DNA from: a virus | DNA length: 20,822 bases | Reading direction: 5' to 3' (one strand) | IMG/VR virus record: IMGVR_UViG_3300021335_000114 | Coordinates: 1-20,822 of that record | Part shown: one piece after another, positions 2,397 through 10,640 of the stretch | Numbering within the stretch: the stretch's first letter is position 1 | Layout: each line of letters opens with the position of its first letter | Program-made: the position numbers and the translations under genes | The notes under the pieces: model-generated | What the model was told of the DNA's origin: nothing | The model's input: the letters and a program-made list of their open reading frames with translations, nothing else | The model's database searches: none

Positions 2397-2412
2397 AAAA
2401 AAAGCAGGAGGG

Positions 2413-2441
2413 ATAGTCCGTTCTGTTGCCCGGTGGACTAT
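2413..2441 (-). other. Helix near 3' end of tmRNA coding piece, followed by U7
   Basis: ATAGTCC (2441-2435) and GGACTAT (2419-2413) form a perfect 7-bp stem around a 15-nt loop. A run of seven U follows at 2403-2397. It is either the last helix or pseudoknot arm of the coding piece, the transcription terminator, or both. The 9-nt gap between stem and U-run is long for a simple terminator. GCUUUU at this end could pair with AAAAGC in the acceptor piece, as expected when the two pieces associate. Confidence 0.6.
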
Positions 2442-2461
2442 GCCGCGGAGTTCACAACTTA

Positions 2462-2542
2462 TTAGGCTGCGAGTAATTCACCTTCACTAGCCATTGACAT
2501 GTCTAATGAAGTAAATGCTCCAGGTACAAAATTTTCGTTTGC
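2462..2542 (-). other. tmRNA proteolysis-tag reading frame
   Basis: The resume codon is GCA at 2542-2540. The frame encodes 26 residues beginning ANENFVPGAF and ending EGELLAA, closed by tandem TAA TAA stops. The Ala-Asn-Glu/Asp-Asn opening is typical of alphaproteobacterial tags, and the Leu-Ala-Ala end is the ClpXP recognition signature. At 26 residues it is towards the long end of known tags. There is no start codon, as expected for trans-translation. Confidence 0.88.
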
Positions 2543-2629
2543 ACTTATAAAGGTTTCTTGCATTAACCGAGCTTGCTCCGGATAACTCAGCATCCCTACT
2601 TACTGCTTGTCGAATACCTGAACACCCCC

Positions 2630-2645
2630 GTGTGTTGAAAATGTG
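2630..2645 (-). other. Intervening spacer between tmRNA acceptor and coding pieces
   Basis: The 16 nt between the encoded CCA end and G1 of the coding piece form the loop that closes the permuted acceptor stem in the precursor. It should be removed by tRNA-type processing (RNase P at G1, 3' trimming at CCA) to give two RNAs. Confidence 0.75.
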
Positions 2646-2707
2646 TGGTGGAGGTGGCCGGAATCGAACCGGCGTCCAAGTTCAGCTTTTGTTCAGCGTC
2701 ATCGTTA

Positions 2708-2826: not shown

Positions 2827-2907
2827 TTAACAGCCGCACTCTTTGCAATTAGGTTTACAGTCTTTGCAGTTGCACGGATCGCATTTACAGTTTGGATTAT
2901 TACACAT
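2827..2907 (-). CDS. 26-aa cysteine-rich, metallothionein-like peptide
   Basis: ATG 2907 follows an excellent SD (AAGGAGA, 6-nt spacing). The peptide has 26 residues, nine of them Cys, at positions 2, 7, 9, 12, 14, 17, 21, 24 and 26. It includes three Cys-x-Cys pairs (CKC, CNC, CGC) separated by Lys, Asn, Asp and Pro, with no hydrophobic core. This spacing is typical of metal-thiolate cluster peptides. It begins MCNNPNCKCDPCNC. It sits between a basic 43-aa gene upstream and the small membrane peptide downstream, with close spacing throughout. Metal binding (Zn, Cu or Cd) is inferred from the Cys pattern alone. A small zinc-binding structural peptide is the alternative. Confidence 0.7.
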   Translation of the reverse strand: MCNNPNCKCDPCNCKDCKPNCKECGC

Positions 2908-3847: not shown

Positions 3848-4099
3848 TTATCCTTTATGCATAATGTTTTGATAATTCATAGTTTCTACGTATGTAATCA
3901 TTTGATCACACCCACCTACACTTTTACCGTCAATGGTAATTTGTGGAAAAGTTTTTGCGCCCGGAAACCATTCAAAGATTTGTTCTCTTGTAAAATCTTT
4001 GTCTAGTTGCTTATACTCGTAATCTAAATTCCTAGTTTCACAGAAAATTTTTGCTTGGTGACACTTAGGGCAAGAACTTTTTCCATAAATTTCAATCAT
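3848..4099 (-). CDS. grx: Glutaredoxin
   Basis: An 83-aa protein, a normal length for phage glutaredoxins. The active site is Cys10-Pro-Lys-Cys13 after a beta strand (MIEIYGKSSCPKC). The cis-Pro loop is TFPQITIDG, and the GSH-binding turn is Gly-Gly-Cys-Asp. It starts at ATG 4099 with SD AAAGGATTTTC and overlaps the end of nrdB (4096) by 4 nt. Glutaredoxin reduces the C-terminal cysteine pair of NrdA after each catalytic cycle, so this is the electron donor of the reductase operon. Confidence 0.93.
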   Translation of the reverse strand: MIEIYGKSSCPKCHQAKIFCETRNLDYEYKQLDKDFTREQIFEWFPGAKTFPQITIDGKSVGGCDQMITYVETMNYQNIMHKG

Positions 4100-5196
4100 A
4101 ATGAAAATCCTTTTAATAAGTCTTTGTTAACATCTTGTTTAATACCGCCAATTATATAAGATTCTACTTCAGTTTCCTGCGGAGCAACTTGTAAACCTGA
4201 ACTGCTTAACCAGTGTGTAGTCCACGGTAAAGGATTTGTGTTTACTGGTTGTTCAAATATAGTTTCAAAACCAAGTGCTTTTAACCGTCTGTTTGCAATA
4301 TATTCTACGTATTGGTCTAATAGCGTTTTATTTAGTCCAATCATAGATCCATCCTTAAATAAATATTCCGCCCATGCTTTTTCTTCGTTTACACATTCTC
4401 GCCAAATCTCATAAACATCTTGCTCGCAATCTTTTGCTGCCTGTTGCATCGCAGGATCGTCCTTTCCTTGCATCCATAGTTTTAGTATATGTGTGCTTAT
4501 TGCGAGGTGCTGTGCTTCGTCACGTGCTATTAACGAGATAATTTTTGCAGAACCTTCCATTAATTTCAATTCACCAAATCCAAACGTACATGCAAATGAA
4601 ACATAAAATCTTAATCCTTCAAGGATGTTGACAGTCATCATTGCAAGGAAAAGTTTTTTATTTAGGATTTTTTTGTCAATTGACCGATCGTGTGTATATT
4701 GTTGTGCAAGTTTCATAAATTCATCGTAATACTTTGTTACACTGTTTGCACGATTAATAATCATTTCATCGTCTAGTATTGTATCAAATACTTCCTCTGG
4801 ATTTGCATACACATTTTTCATAATATGTGTATAAGATCGACTATGGATAGTTTCGAAGAAATCCCATGTAACAATGCATCCTTCTAATTCAGGCAGTGAT
4901 ACATATGGAAGGAAAGCTAGGCAAGGACCTCTACCCTGTACGCTATCAAGCAAGGTTTGATATTTTAGATTAGCAGTAAAAATATGTTTTTGTTCTGGTC
5001 GGAAATTTTGATAATCTGCACGATCTTTTTGTAAACTTACTTCTTCAGGACGCCAAAAATAACCAAGCATTGTTTGATTTAATTTATCAAACTGTGGAAA
5101 TTTAAATGTATCATACCTTTGCACATTTTGATCTGCACCAAAAAACATATGTTGCTTACTAAAATCAATCTTATCTCTATTAAAAACAGTTTTCAT
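4096..5196 (-). CDS. nrdB: Class Ia ribonucleotide reductase, beta subunit
   Basis: I choose ATG 5196 (366 aa). It has SD AAAGGAAAAAA and lies after the nrdA stop, whereas the upstream ATG at 5238 would overlap nrdA. With this start the metal and radical residues fall at Asp84, Glu115, His118 and Tyr122, the same numbers as in E. coli NrdB. Further ligands are in NILEGLRFYV (Glu193), and in ARDEAQH (Glu227, His230). The segment ETIHSRSYTHI is diagnostic. The protein carries the diiron-tyrosyl radical that starts nucleotide reduction on NrdA. All key residues are intact, so it should be active. It is the second gene of nrdA-nrdB-grx. Confidence 0.96.
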   Translation of the reverse strand: MKTVFNRDKIDFSKQHMFFGADQNVQRYDTFKFPQFDKLNQTMLGYFWRPEEVSLQKDRADYQNFRPEQKHIFTANLKYQTLLDSVQGRGPCLAFLPYVSLPELEGCIVTWDFFETIHSRSYTHIMKNVYANPEEVFDTILDDEMIINRANSVTKYYDEFMKLAQQYTHDRSIDKKILNKKLFLAMMTVNILEGLRFYVSFACTFGFGELKLMEGSAKIISLIARDEAQHLAISTHILKLWMQGKDDPAMQQAAKDCEQDVYEIWRECVNEEKAWAEYLFKDGSMIGLNKTLLDQYVEYIANRRLKALGFETIFEQPVNTNPLPWTTHWLSSSGLQVAPQETEVESYIIGGIKQDVNKDLLKGFSL

Positions 5197-5206
5197 TTTT
5201 TTCCTT

Positions 5207-7504
5207 TCAAATTGCACAGGCTTCGCACTCTTCTGCATCGTTTTCTACGGGCAGTTGAGGTAGTTGCTCTTCTTTTTCTTCAATATCATTTGGATCAATT
5301 TTAAAATCATATGTATTTTGATAATAACTTGTTTTCCAGCCGAGTTTGTAAGTGGTTATTAAATCTTTAAGCATTACGCTCATAGGAACTTCATTGTTAG
5401 GATAGTGTGTAGGATTGTAACTCCAATTTCCACTAATCGCTTGGTCGAAGAATTTTTGCATAACAGCAACAATATTAATGTATCCTTGGTTGTCTGGCAT
5501 ATCCCATAAAAGTGTATAAAAAGCTTTGAGAGTTTGATACTGTGGAACAATTTGTTTCAACGGTCCTTTTTTACTCTTTTTTACTGATAGGTAACCTCTT
5601 GGTGGCTCGATTCCATTTGTTGCGTTAGAGACTACCGAGCTGCTTTCGCTTGGCATCTGTGCTGATAGTGTGCTGTGTCGTAGGCCCCATATTTCTATTT
5701 GTTGTCGCAAATCGTCCCAATCCATTTTCAATTCATTAGGAACAATAGTATCTACATCATTTTTATAGGTATCAATCGGTAATATTCCTTTTGCGTATTT
5801 TGTTTTCTTATAACCATCACACACACCTTTTTCTTGTGCAATCCTATTACTAGACTTCAAAAGATAGTATTGGAACGCTTCAGTTAAATCGTGAACTAAG
5901 ACAGCAGCTTGTGGATCGCTATATTTTACTTTGTTTTTTGCTAGATAATGAGCAAGTCCAATATAACCTATACCTAATGATCTCCTAGCCTTTGTTCCTT
6001 TTTCTGCTGCTTTTACAGGATATCTTTGATAGTCAATAATTTCCTCAAGAGCCCTAACTGCTAAATCACAGAGTTCTTCAAGGTCAGTAGTTTCTTTAAT
6101 AGTTCCTATGTTAATAGCACTTAATATGCATAGGGCAATTTCTCCACTTTCGTCGTCTATATGTTGGATAGGAGTTGTAGGTAAGGTAATTTCTTGACAC
6201 AAATTAGACATATAAACTGTGTCATTAAAACTGCTATGACTGTTACAATGGTCAACATTCATGATATAAATTCTACCAGTTTCTGCTCTTTCCTTTATAA
6301 GTTCTGAAAACAACTCCATTGCATCAATTTTTTGTTTTTTGATACTTGTTGCTCTCTCATATTTTTCATAAAGTTCTTCAAACTTGCTCTGATCACTAAA
6401 GAATGCTTCATATAAATCCGGTACATCATGAGGAGAAAAAAGAGTTATTGTTCCTCCCTCTAGCAAACGTGTATACATAGTTTTATTCATTTGGATTGAA
6501 TAATCTAATTTTCTAACACGATTATCTTCAGTCCCTTTATTATTTTTTAAGACAAGCACATCTTGAATTTCTTGATGCCAAAAAGGAAAATGCACTGTTG
6601 CACTTCCGCCACGCACTCCATTTTGTGTGCAGCATCTCACAGTTGCTTCAAACTTTTTTAAAAATGGAATCACACCTGTATGAGCTACTTCTCCACCTCT
6701 AATTTTTGAATTAACTCCTCTAATTCTACCAGCGTTGATTCCTATGCCAGCTCTTTGGGCAATATATTTGCCAATTGCCATGTCTGACGAAAAAATGCTA
6801 TCAAGGGTATCGTCGCTATCTACCAATACACAACTTGCAAATTGACGTACCGGTGTTCGTACGCCAGCCATTACTGGTGTAGGAATGTTAATTTTAAACA
6901 AGCTGATACAATCATAGTATCTACGAATGTAATGCATCCTTGTTTCGCGTGGATAATTTGCAAACAATGTTGCTGCAATCATCATGTACATATGCTGCGG
7001 TGATTCAAATACCGTTCCAGTTGATCTATCTTGGCACAAATATTTGTCTAATACCTGACGTAAGCCTGCATAGGTAAAATTTTCATCTCTTTTATGGTTA
7101 ATGTAGGTGTCTAATTTTTCTAATTCATTAGTTGTGTATTTTTCTAAAATTTCTTTATCATACACTCCTCTTTCAACATTCTTTTTTATCATTTGACTTA
7201 GAGGTAATGCAGTATACTGACCAAACACTTTTTTGTATACATCATATGATAATAATCTAGCAGCAGCATATTGGTAGTTTGGATGATCAAGAGATATAAG
7301 ATCATTTGCACTACGCACTAAAATTTCTTGAATTTCAGAACTTGTCATGCCATCATAAAATTGTAGGTTTGCATTCATTTCTATTTGGCTACTGCTTACT
7401 CCGGCTAAATTGGAGCAAGCAAATTCAACCACACGGTGAATTTTATCAATGTTTAATCCTTCTTTTTGTCCTGTTCTTTTTATGATATTGATAGGAGAGG
7501 TCAT
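5207..7504 (-). CDS. nrdA: Class Ia ribonucleotide reductase, alpha subunit
   Basis: A 765-aa protein, close to E. coli NrdA (761). Residues 1-95 form an ATP-cone (KRTGQKEGLNIDKIHRVVEF), so activity should be regulated by ATP/dATP. The catalytic core shows the redox cysteine in VRQFASCVL, the thiyl-radical loop NLCQEITLP, the second redox cysteine in ALCILSAINIG, and a Tyr-Tyr pair (TSYYQNTY) for radical transfer. The C-terminal tail ends CEACAI, the Cys pair reduced by glutaredoxin. It converts ribonucleoside diphosphates to dNDPs for phage DNA synthesis. It is the first gene of the nrd operon. The SD is AAGGA, and a late-like AATAAATA lies at 7532-7539. Confidence 0.97.
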   Translation of the reverse strand: MTSPINIIKRTGQKEGLNIDKIHRVVEFACSNLAGVSSSQIEMNANLQFYDGMTSSEIQEILVRSANDLISLDHPNYQYAAARLLSYDVYKKVFGQYTALPLSQMIKKNVERGVYDKEILEKYTTNELEKLDTYINHKRDENFTYAGLRQVLDKYLCQDRSTGTVFESPQHMYMMIAATLFANYPRETRMHYIRRYYDCISLFKINIPTPVMAGVRTPVRQFASCVLVDSDDTLDSIFSSDMAIGKYIAQRAGIGINAGRIRGVNSKIRGGEVAHTGVIPFLKKFEATVRCCTQNGVRGGSATVHFPFWHQEIQDVLVLKNNKGTEDNRVRKLDYSIQMNKTMYTRLLEGGTITLFSPHDVPDLYEAFFSDQSKFEELYEKYERATSIKKQKIDAMELFSELIKERAETGRIYIMNVDHCNSHSSFNDTVYMSNLCQEITLPTTPIQHIDDESGEIALCILSAINIGTIKETTDLEELCDLAVRALEEIIDYQRYPVKAAEKGTKARRSLGIGYIGLAHYLAKNKVKYSDPQAAVLVHDLTEAFQYYLLKSSNRIAQEKGVCDGYKKTKYAKGILPIDTYKNDVDTIVPNELKMDWDDLRQQIEIWGLRHSTLSAQMPSESSSVVSNATNGIEPPRGYLSVKKSKKGPLKQIVPQYQTLKAFYTLLWDMPDNQGYINIVAVMQKFFDQAISGNWSYNPTHYPNNEVPMSVMLKDLITTYKLGWKTSYYQNTYDFKIDPNDIEEKEEQLPQLPVENDAEECEACAI

Positions 7505-9638: not shown

Positions 9639-10317
9639 TGCTATGCTGCTCATAATATGTATATAATCTTTCATACCATTCATTTTTCCAGTAAGGATAA
9701 TCCGCAGGTAAAAGATCAAATTGTTGATATTCTAAGTTCCTACTACACATAAAAATGTGACCTTCTTTTATATCAGTGTCATACAGTTCATTATGCGCTT
9801 CTATATAAGCAACTAGTTGTAAGTAATAATCATCTACCCAGTCCTGTTTCTTTGGTTTGTTAGTTTGTTTAAAATCGCATATTGATAGGTTACCATCATA
9901 GGTACAGACTAGATCTGTAGTACCAGCATATAATTTTGGCATCCATAAATTAACTTCTGATCCTAATATTTCGTCTATAGACGGGAAGGCATTTTCCTTA
10001 ATAACTTTAGCCATTTCGTTTGCTTGCGAAGCATACCAATTACTACCTGGTGAAGGCCATGACCCTGTGTCGATATAGTCCTCTAAATATTTGTGCATCC
10101 TTGTGCCTACACCTGCTGCTTCAGTAGTAATTTCTTGGGCTTTTTTTTCTCCTACCCGCCTACGCCACTCAAATAAATGTGTATTATCTTTAGTTTTACT
10201 TAAGATGGTAGTGACGCTAGCAACAGCATTACCGTCTGGAGTAAGATATAATCTCTTGCCTTCTATTTGTTTTCTAGAAATCGAAGCATAATCAAATTTA
10301 CGTTTTATTAAACTCAT
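9634..10317 (-). CDS. PD-(D/E)XK nuclease, RecB/Cas4-like
   Basis: A 227-aa protein. Motifs in order: GTRMHKYLE (His75, the RecB-type GTxxHxxxE helix), Glu121 (GSEVNLW), GTTDLV with Asp135, CDFKQ with Asp148 and Lys150, and DYYLQLVAY with Gln167/Tyr171 (QxxxY). This is the full active-site set of a PDDEXK_1 exonuclease. No Cys cluster for a Cas4-type Fe-S centre is visible. Its likely role is DNA end processing in phage replication/recombination or host DNA breakdown. The start (ATG 10317) overlaps the nfu stop by 4 nt (ATGA), so it should share the early promoter at 10660-10687. Confidence 0.85.
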   Translation of the reverse strand: MSLIKRKFDYASISRKQIEGKRLYLTPDGNAVASVTTILSKTKDNTHLFEWRRRVGEKKAQEITTEAAGVGTRMHKYLEDYIDTGSWPSPGSNWYASQANEMAKVIKENAFPSIDEILGSEVNLWMPKLYAGTTDLVCTYDGNLSICDFKQTNKPKKQDWVDDYYLQLVAYIEAHNELYDTDIKEGHIFMCSRNLEYQQFDLLPADYPYWKNEWYERLYTYYEQHSR

Positions 10318-10640
10318 GCTTCTTCATCAAAATAGTAATTTTGATACAGAAATGGATCATTGTGATAAAAAGGATCAATGGTACTATTAGGATCATCTTG
10401 CGCTATAATATTTGTAACCTCAGGAACAAAGTGCATTAACATTCCTTCTACACCTTGTTTTAAAGTATAGATACTTCCTGCACATCCACTGCATGCACCA
10501 CTTAGCATTAATTCGACAGTACCATTATCGTAATTTACAAAATTAATTGATCCTCCATGTTCTGCAACTGCAGGTTGCACATAATCTTCAAGTGCTTCTT
10601 TAATTGCGGTAATTATTTCTTCGTTTGTTCTTTCTTTCAT
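10314..10640 (-). CDS. NifU C-terminal-like (Nfu) Fe-S protein
   Basis: A 108-aa protein. Residues about 5-75 form an Nfu domain: helix EEIITAIKEALEDYVQPAVA, then EHGGSINFVNYDNGTVELML, then Ser-Gly-Ala-Cys50-Ser-Gly-Cys53-Ala with TLKQGVEGML. The Cys-x-x-Cys pair binds a 4Fe-4S cluster at a dimer interface for transfer to target proteins. About 25 extra C-terminal residues are Asp/Phe/Tyr-rich and unlike the family. It is the first gene behind a near-consensus sigma70 promoter and is coupled to the PD-(D/E)XK nuclease gene. It may supply clusters to host or phage enzymes; the target is not evident here. Confidence 0.9.
   Translation of the reverse strand: MKERTNEEIITAIKEALEDYVQPAVAEHGGSINFVNYDNGTVELMLSGACSGCAGSIYTLKQGVEGMLMHFVPEVTNIIAQDDPNSTIDPFYHNDPFLYQNYYFDEEA

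Follow-up and report, generated by a model that had tools for sequence, protein, structure and literature searches.

Permuted tmRNAs are made as precursors that are cleaved into two pieces, which are then joined by base pairing; one-piece phage tmRNAs have the standard gene order and are not permuted. Two-piece forms make up 53 of the 133 distinct phage tmRNAs of PMC9004378, 50 of them being marine or aquatic, and a permuted tmRNA has already been reported there for phage Melnitz (MZ577097), which infects a gammaproteobacterium, so that the type of a tmRNA can mislead about the host. The tmRNA database of 2025 contains 79 phage sequences (PMC11915505), and huge phages have been found to carry tmRNA along with SmpB (PMC7162821). 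An earlier note on the DNA discussed here had treated the permuted form as not yet well described in phages; this main claim to novelty fails in view of the published cases and of the matches of the Rfam model RF04321 (tmRNA_permuted) to Melnitz and to Pelagibacter phage Mosig (MT647606).

The stretch analysed, referred to below as the window, is a linear IMG/VR record of 20,822 bases. Its genes are phage genes, many of them typical of T4-like phages (NrdA, NrdB, thioredoxin/glutaredoxin, PAAR, endolysins and an exonuclease), and it also encodes a ribose-phosphate pyrophosphokinase and a NifU-domain protein; the NifU-like iron-sulphur scaffold domain (PF01106, E 4.7e-23) lies in the phage protein at 10314-10640 (-). 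A permuted, two-piece tmRNA gene with an alpha-type coding piece is borne by this phage at positions 2708-2404 of the minus strand; no strand had been given in the earlier note. The covariance-model search which that note had proposed yielded a full-length match to RF04321 (model 1-213) at 2708-2462, with 87.4 bits and an E-value of 7e-16 against a gathering score of 47 bits. RF01849 (alpha_tmRNA), the top scorer in its clan, matched 2786-2412 with 53.4 bits, a narrow margin over its gathering score of 50 bits. ARAGORN called no tmRNA gene in the window, so routine annotation would miss this gene, and counts based on that program may be too low.

Along the RNA, all read from the minus strand, the T-arm is followed by the acceptor 3' strand and its CCA, the spacer, the acceptor 5' strand, the pseudoknot region, the tag and, last, the 3' hairpin. 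The acceptor piece occupies 2646-2708, its 5' end being taken from the RF04321 match and its 3' end from the encoded CCA. The T-arm GCCGG-UUCGAUU-CCGGC, with a canonical T-loop, lies at 2657-2673, as placed by the covariance match and by direct reading and a script; the latter two also locate the acceptor 3' strand with the encoded ACCA (CACCUCC-ACCA, 2656-2646) and the 16-nt intervening spacer CACATTTTCAACACAC (2630-2645). The acceptor 5' strand, GGGGGUG at 2629-2623, forms a 7-bp stem including G3-U70 with CACCUCC across the spacer, giving the acceptor half before the coding half and the spacer-spanning stem that characterize a permuted tmRNA. The coding piece, at 2404-2629, starts with acceptor G1 and runs through the whole 3' hairpin region; the RF01849 match reaches 2412, and the gene probably ends at 2404, where a T-run closes it. 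The tag frame, ANENFVPGAFTSLDMSMASEGELLAA (26 aa) with its stop and the resume codon GCA, was found by direct reading and script at 2462-2542. Alignment to alpha_tmRNA and folding place the 3' hairpin/pseudoknot region, AUAGUCC...GGGCAACAGAA...GGACUAU, at 2413-2441, with the alpha-type GGCAACAGAA motif inside it. The alanine identity pair G3-U70, the GCA resume codon, the stop and the LLAA end are all present, and every element listed in the earlier note -- acceptor half first, 7-bp stem, G3-U70, T-arm, CCA, 16-nt spacer and 26-codon LLAA tag -- was seen in the sequence. The fold of the whole region barely beats shuffles (z -1.43), which is no surprise in an RNA with many pseudoknots. The window's tmRNA is very probably a genuine and intact phage gene of the permuted two-piece kind, which would work in ribosome rescue with the SmpB of the host.

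Two candidate promoters for the gene were rejected. The MotA-type middle promoter TTGCTTTA-13-TAAACT at 2736-2710 is a single match in the window and is not enriched in a 117-kb relative (3 against 2.5 expected), and the TATAAATA of a T4 late promoter is not present upstream of the window's tmRNA. Of 109 viral copies, 43, such as L210 and L204, have a TTGACA-like -35 element and TATAAATA directly before the acceptor piece, as overlapping sigma70-like and T4-late-like elements; this arrangement is absent from the window. Adjoining the window's tmRNA at 2827-2907 (-), with a ribosome-binding site, is the gene for a cysteine-rich mini-protein of 26 residues, MCNNPNCKCDPCNCKDCKPNCKECGC, which has metallothionein-like spacing and no Pfam match; several relatives have kept it, L355 and L008 in shorter forms.

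The gene nrdB (4096-5238 (-); PHROG 86, E 2.9e-150) lies upstream of the tmRNA in the same orientation and served as bait for relatives, which were viral contigs fetched through NrdB at 75-100% identity. A permuted tmRNA scoring over the cut-off is present in 42 of 80 such records, and in 27 of the 30 nrdB-related records that have at least 3.5 kb downstream of nrdB; where the anatomy script located it, it was on the same strand as nrdB and 1.4-5 kb downstream. The same tag (with one S/N variant), in a gene arranged in the same way and with a spacer of 16-20 nt, recurs in at least 10 other virus records (L002, L005, L006, L007, L011, L359, L360, L361, L368 and L373). This recurrence makes the tmRNA gene a regular part of the phage clade, a widespread marine one in which the two-piece form is evidently standard; together with the synteny with nrdB and the phage genes on either side, it excludes mis-assembled host DNA, the outcome that the earlier note had named as fatal to its reading. 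Among phage isolates, the only close DNA relative was of nrdA (71% in S-SRM01), and the tag lineage was not found by tblastn with a 24-aa query, a weak negative for so short a query. The neighbouring protein at 1312-2160, used as bait, returned no loci.

The two halves of the molecule differ in how closely they resemble cellular copies. Among the tmRNAs found by their tag ends alone there are five versions of the acceptor stem -- GGGGGUG/CACCUCC, GGGCCUG/CAGGUCC, GGGGCUG/CAGCUCC, GGGGCCG/CGGCUCC and GGGGGCG/CGCCUCC -- in which the changes compensate on both strands and U70 is constant; the stem, scored at a threshold of at least 6 of 7 pairs, is kept in every tag-found copy that is not cut by a contig end. 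The T-loop UUCGANU, which in the window is UUCGAUU, occurs in 0 of 63 distinct cellular alphaproteobacterial copies, while 56 of the 63 have GGCRGUA and the others are close to it, in a sample drawn partly by tag and score and not by T-loop. (Proportions of viral T-loops were left uninterpreted because part of the viral sample was drawn with the pattern TTCGANT.) The window thus lacks the GGCRGUA-type loop of the cellular RF01849 members, and its alpha-like coding piece and canonical T-loop make the phage molecule mixed in type: the designation "alphaproteobacterial type" of the earlier note holds for the coding piece and not for the T-loop.

The 26-aa tag of the window belongs to a phage family whose middle is AFTSLD[ML]SM. 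A degenerate pattern for this middle matched in 35 viral records, each time within a tmRNA tag. Because that pattern itself fixes the middle, a second scan was run in which only the tag ends were fixed and 33-60 nt between them left free; it returned 32 viral records, all within the first 35 and all with the AFTSLD[ML]SM middle. The family was found in 0 of 385 alphaproteobacterial genomes, so the tag does not identify a host, although the earlier note had read its start as pointing to an alphaproteobacterial one. Tags of at least 20 aa were seen in 43 of 97 parsed phage copies against 3 of 62 cellular ones, a phage share inflated by several scans that selected long tags; the median for cellular alphaproteobacterial tags is 12 aa. 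A second long phage tag family, ANDNALxNVTFVDF...NEDFALAA (lineage B; loci L061, L068, L070, L075-L080 and L380-L420), combines a conserved core with a variable linker, and the evidence for protein-level constraint on its NVTFVDF tags is weak (p 0.02).

Over the nine middle codons, eight distinct DNA versions require at least 11 synonymous and 2 non-synonymous changes (binomial p 9e-7), both of the latter M-to-L in one codon, and the six loop codons outside a small RNA helix show 6 against 2 (p 4e-4), these being parsimony minima over few changes that ignore the tree, with the synonymous changes coming from one clade. The middle also stays constant across several T-loop and acceptor versions. 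It appears, on these codon counts, to be conserved at the protein level, which strengthens the earlier idea of a phage-specific peptide. Some of the conservation may instead be at the level of RNA, since the tag RNA of the window can fold into a hairpin and a 6-bp helix, in which the F-T codons pair with the R-E-L region, overlaps the tag (it pairs in 97% of alignment cells, with one compensatory pair). One possibility, to which we would give a little less than an even chance, is that the middle, AFTSLDMSM, is read by a host or phage protein such as a protease adaptor, which would redirect the fate of truncated proteins instead of just adding to host rescue; the identity of the middle in all 32 ends-only records, its bias towards synonymous change, its stability while T-loop and acceptor stem vary and its absence from the alphaproteobacterial genomes are consistent with such recognition, against which the partial overlap with the hairpin and the simplicity of a count drawn from so few changes have to be set.

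The spacer of the window measures no more than 16 nt; elsewhere in the clade small genes occupy it. The parser read 109 distinct viral copies, not including the sublineage of the window, which its motif did not recognise, and in 16 of the 109 the spacer is at least 100 nt long. An ORF that has a Shine-Dalgarno motif and begins no more than 30 nt from the CCA fills 15 of these 16 distinct phage spacers, against 0.04 expected from dinucleotide shuffles; the count for cellular spacers of at least 100 nt is 0 of 4. The spacer ORFs (loci L352, L356, L376, L261, L412, L203, L205, L204, L206, L208, L378, L350, L363, L393, L405 and L251) form about nine unrelated families. One ORF of 62 aa, with a dN/dS of about 0.43 (p 0.002), is common to two phage groups that have different tags (L352/L356/L376 and L261/L412), and is homologous to gene 85 of Melnitz (57% identity, E 1e-19), which lies outside the tmRNA, just upstream of it; Melnitz's own spacer holds a different ORF of 54 aa, at about 46.1 kb, so that spacer genes have gone unannotated even in a published isolate. 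For the remaining spacer ORFs Pfam gave no convincing family. The 88-nt tmRNA spacer of L059 resembles a decayed tRNA, with ends that pair (TCAGCACATTG/CAATGTGCTGA) and a T-arm-like GAGAGGTTCGAATCCTC.

The open-licence literature yielded no description of genes within a tmRNA spacer or of phage tags under selection at the protein level, and the tag family with its conserved middle and the spacer genes look new at the level of the clade. Whether the clade's tmRNA is a multi-purpose locus seems to us an evenly balanced question: its tag middle would be selected as protein for a role beyond degradation, and its spacer would dock small phage genes that can replace one another, with either the precursor or the fragment cut out of it serving as the message. 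Both the tag family and the spacer genes deserve to be pursued, the first because a protein-constrained middle is a testable handle on why phages carry a rescue RNA of their own, and the second because phage genes would have a new home in the part of a structured RNA gene that is thrown away.

By analogy with the maturation of other permuted tmRNAs, host tRNA-processing enzymes would cut the transcript at its encoded CCA and again ahead of acceptor G1, freeing the 16-nt spacer, and pairing of the acceptor stem would hold the two pieces together. Host AlaRS would then charge the CCA end, G3-U70 and A73 both being present, and host SmpB would bring the charged tmRNA to stalled ribosomes; SmpB (PF01668) was found in 0 of 29 phage records, mostly fragments, with matches in 10 of 14 controls, so the host protein is most likely the one used. 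The tag that the ribosome would append is the phage's own, 26 residues long, and ends in a hydrophobic LLAA of the usual degradation type, which should direct the product to host proteases. The phage would presumably gain rescue capacity and free ribosomes during host shut-off and the degradation of host mRNA. The SmpB result would also suit a decoy, which would block trans-translation in the host by titrating its SmpB or in some other way; such a role has been proposed for a truncated tmRNA-like RNA in mycobacteriophage DS6A (PMC4131195; PMC11915505). Unlike the DS6A RNA, that of the window keeps a complete and constrained tag frame, a stop and the LLAA end, for which a decoy would have no need, and this alternative is improbable. 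Integration often takes place at tmRNA genes. A reading of the gene as passenger host DNA, or as what is left of an integration site, without function for the phage, an origin discussed in PMC9004378, is still less credible and can hardly apply to a gene that is intact in many independent records and holds its place downstream of nrdB, with a tag family not seen in the sampled hosts, compensatory acceptor-stem versions and no integrase among the window proteins searched.

Ribosome rescue through a permuted phage tmRNA thus remains the preferred reading, and the window's gene can be set beside four known kinds. The one-piece tmRNAs of mycobacteriophages and Stenotrophomonas phages are phage-encoded too, but in the matches found the similarity to the window is limited to about 33 nt. 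Alphaproteobacterial ssrA (RF01849) is the best match in the clan and shares the ANxNF tag start and the GGCAACAGAA 3' region, but differs in its prevailing GGCRGUA T-loop and its shorter tags. The tmRNA of Mosig, annotated as SsrA, is likewise a permuted phage tmRNA (RF04321, 93.6 bits), but has the tag GEDNFALAA, the T-loop TGCAACT and another genomic position. Melnitz, also a marine T4-like phage, likewise has a permuted tmRNA (RF04321, 113.4 bits) with an alpha-type coding piece and, presumably, use of the host SmpB; the T-loop of this tmRNA is GGCAGTA, its spacer is 142 nt long and its tag, ANDNYVPVDYALAA, has 14 aa, where the window has TTCGATT, 16 nt and 26 aa, and it adjoins the gene for the late-transcription coactivator, whereas the window's tmRNA lies downstream of nrdB.
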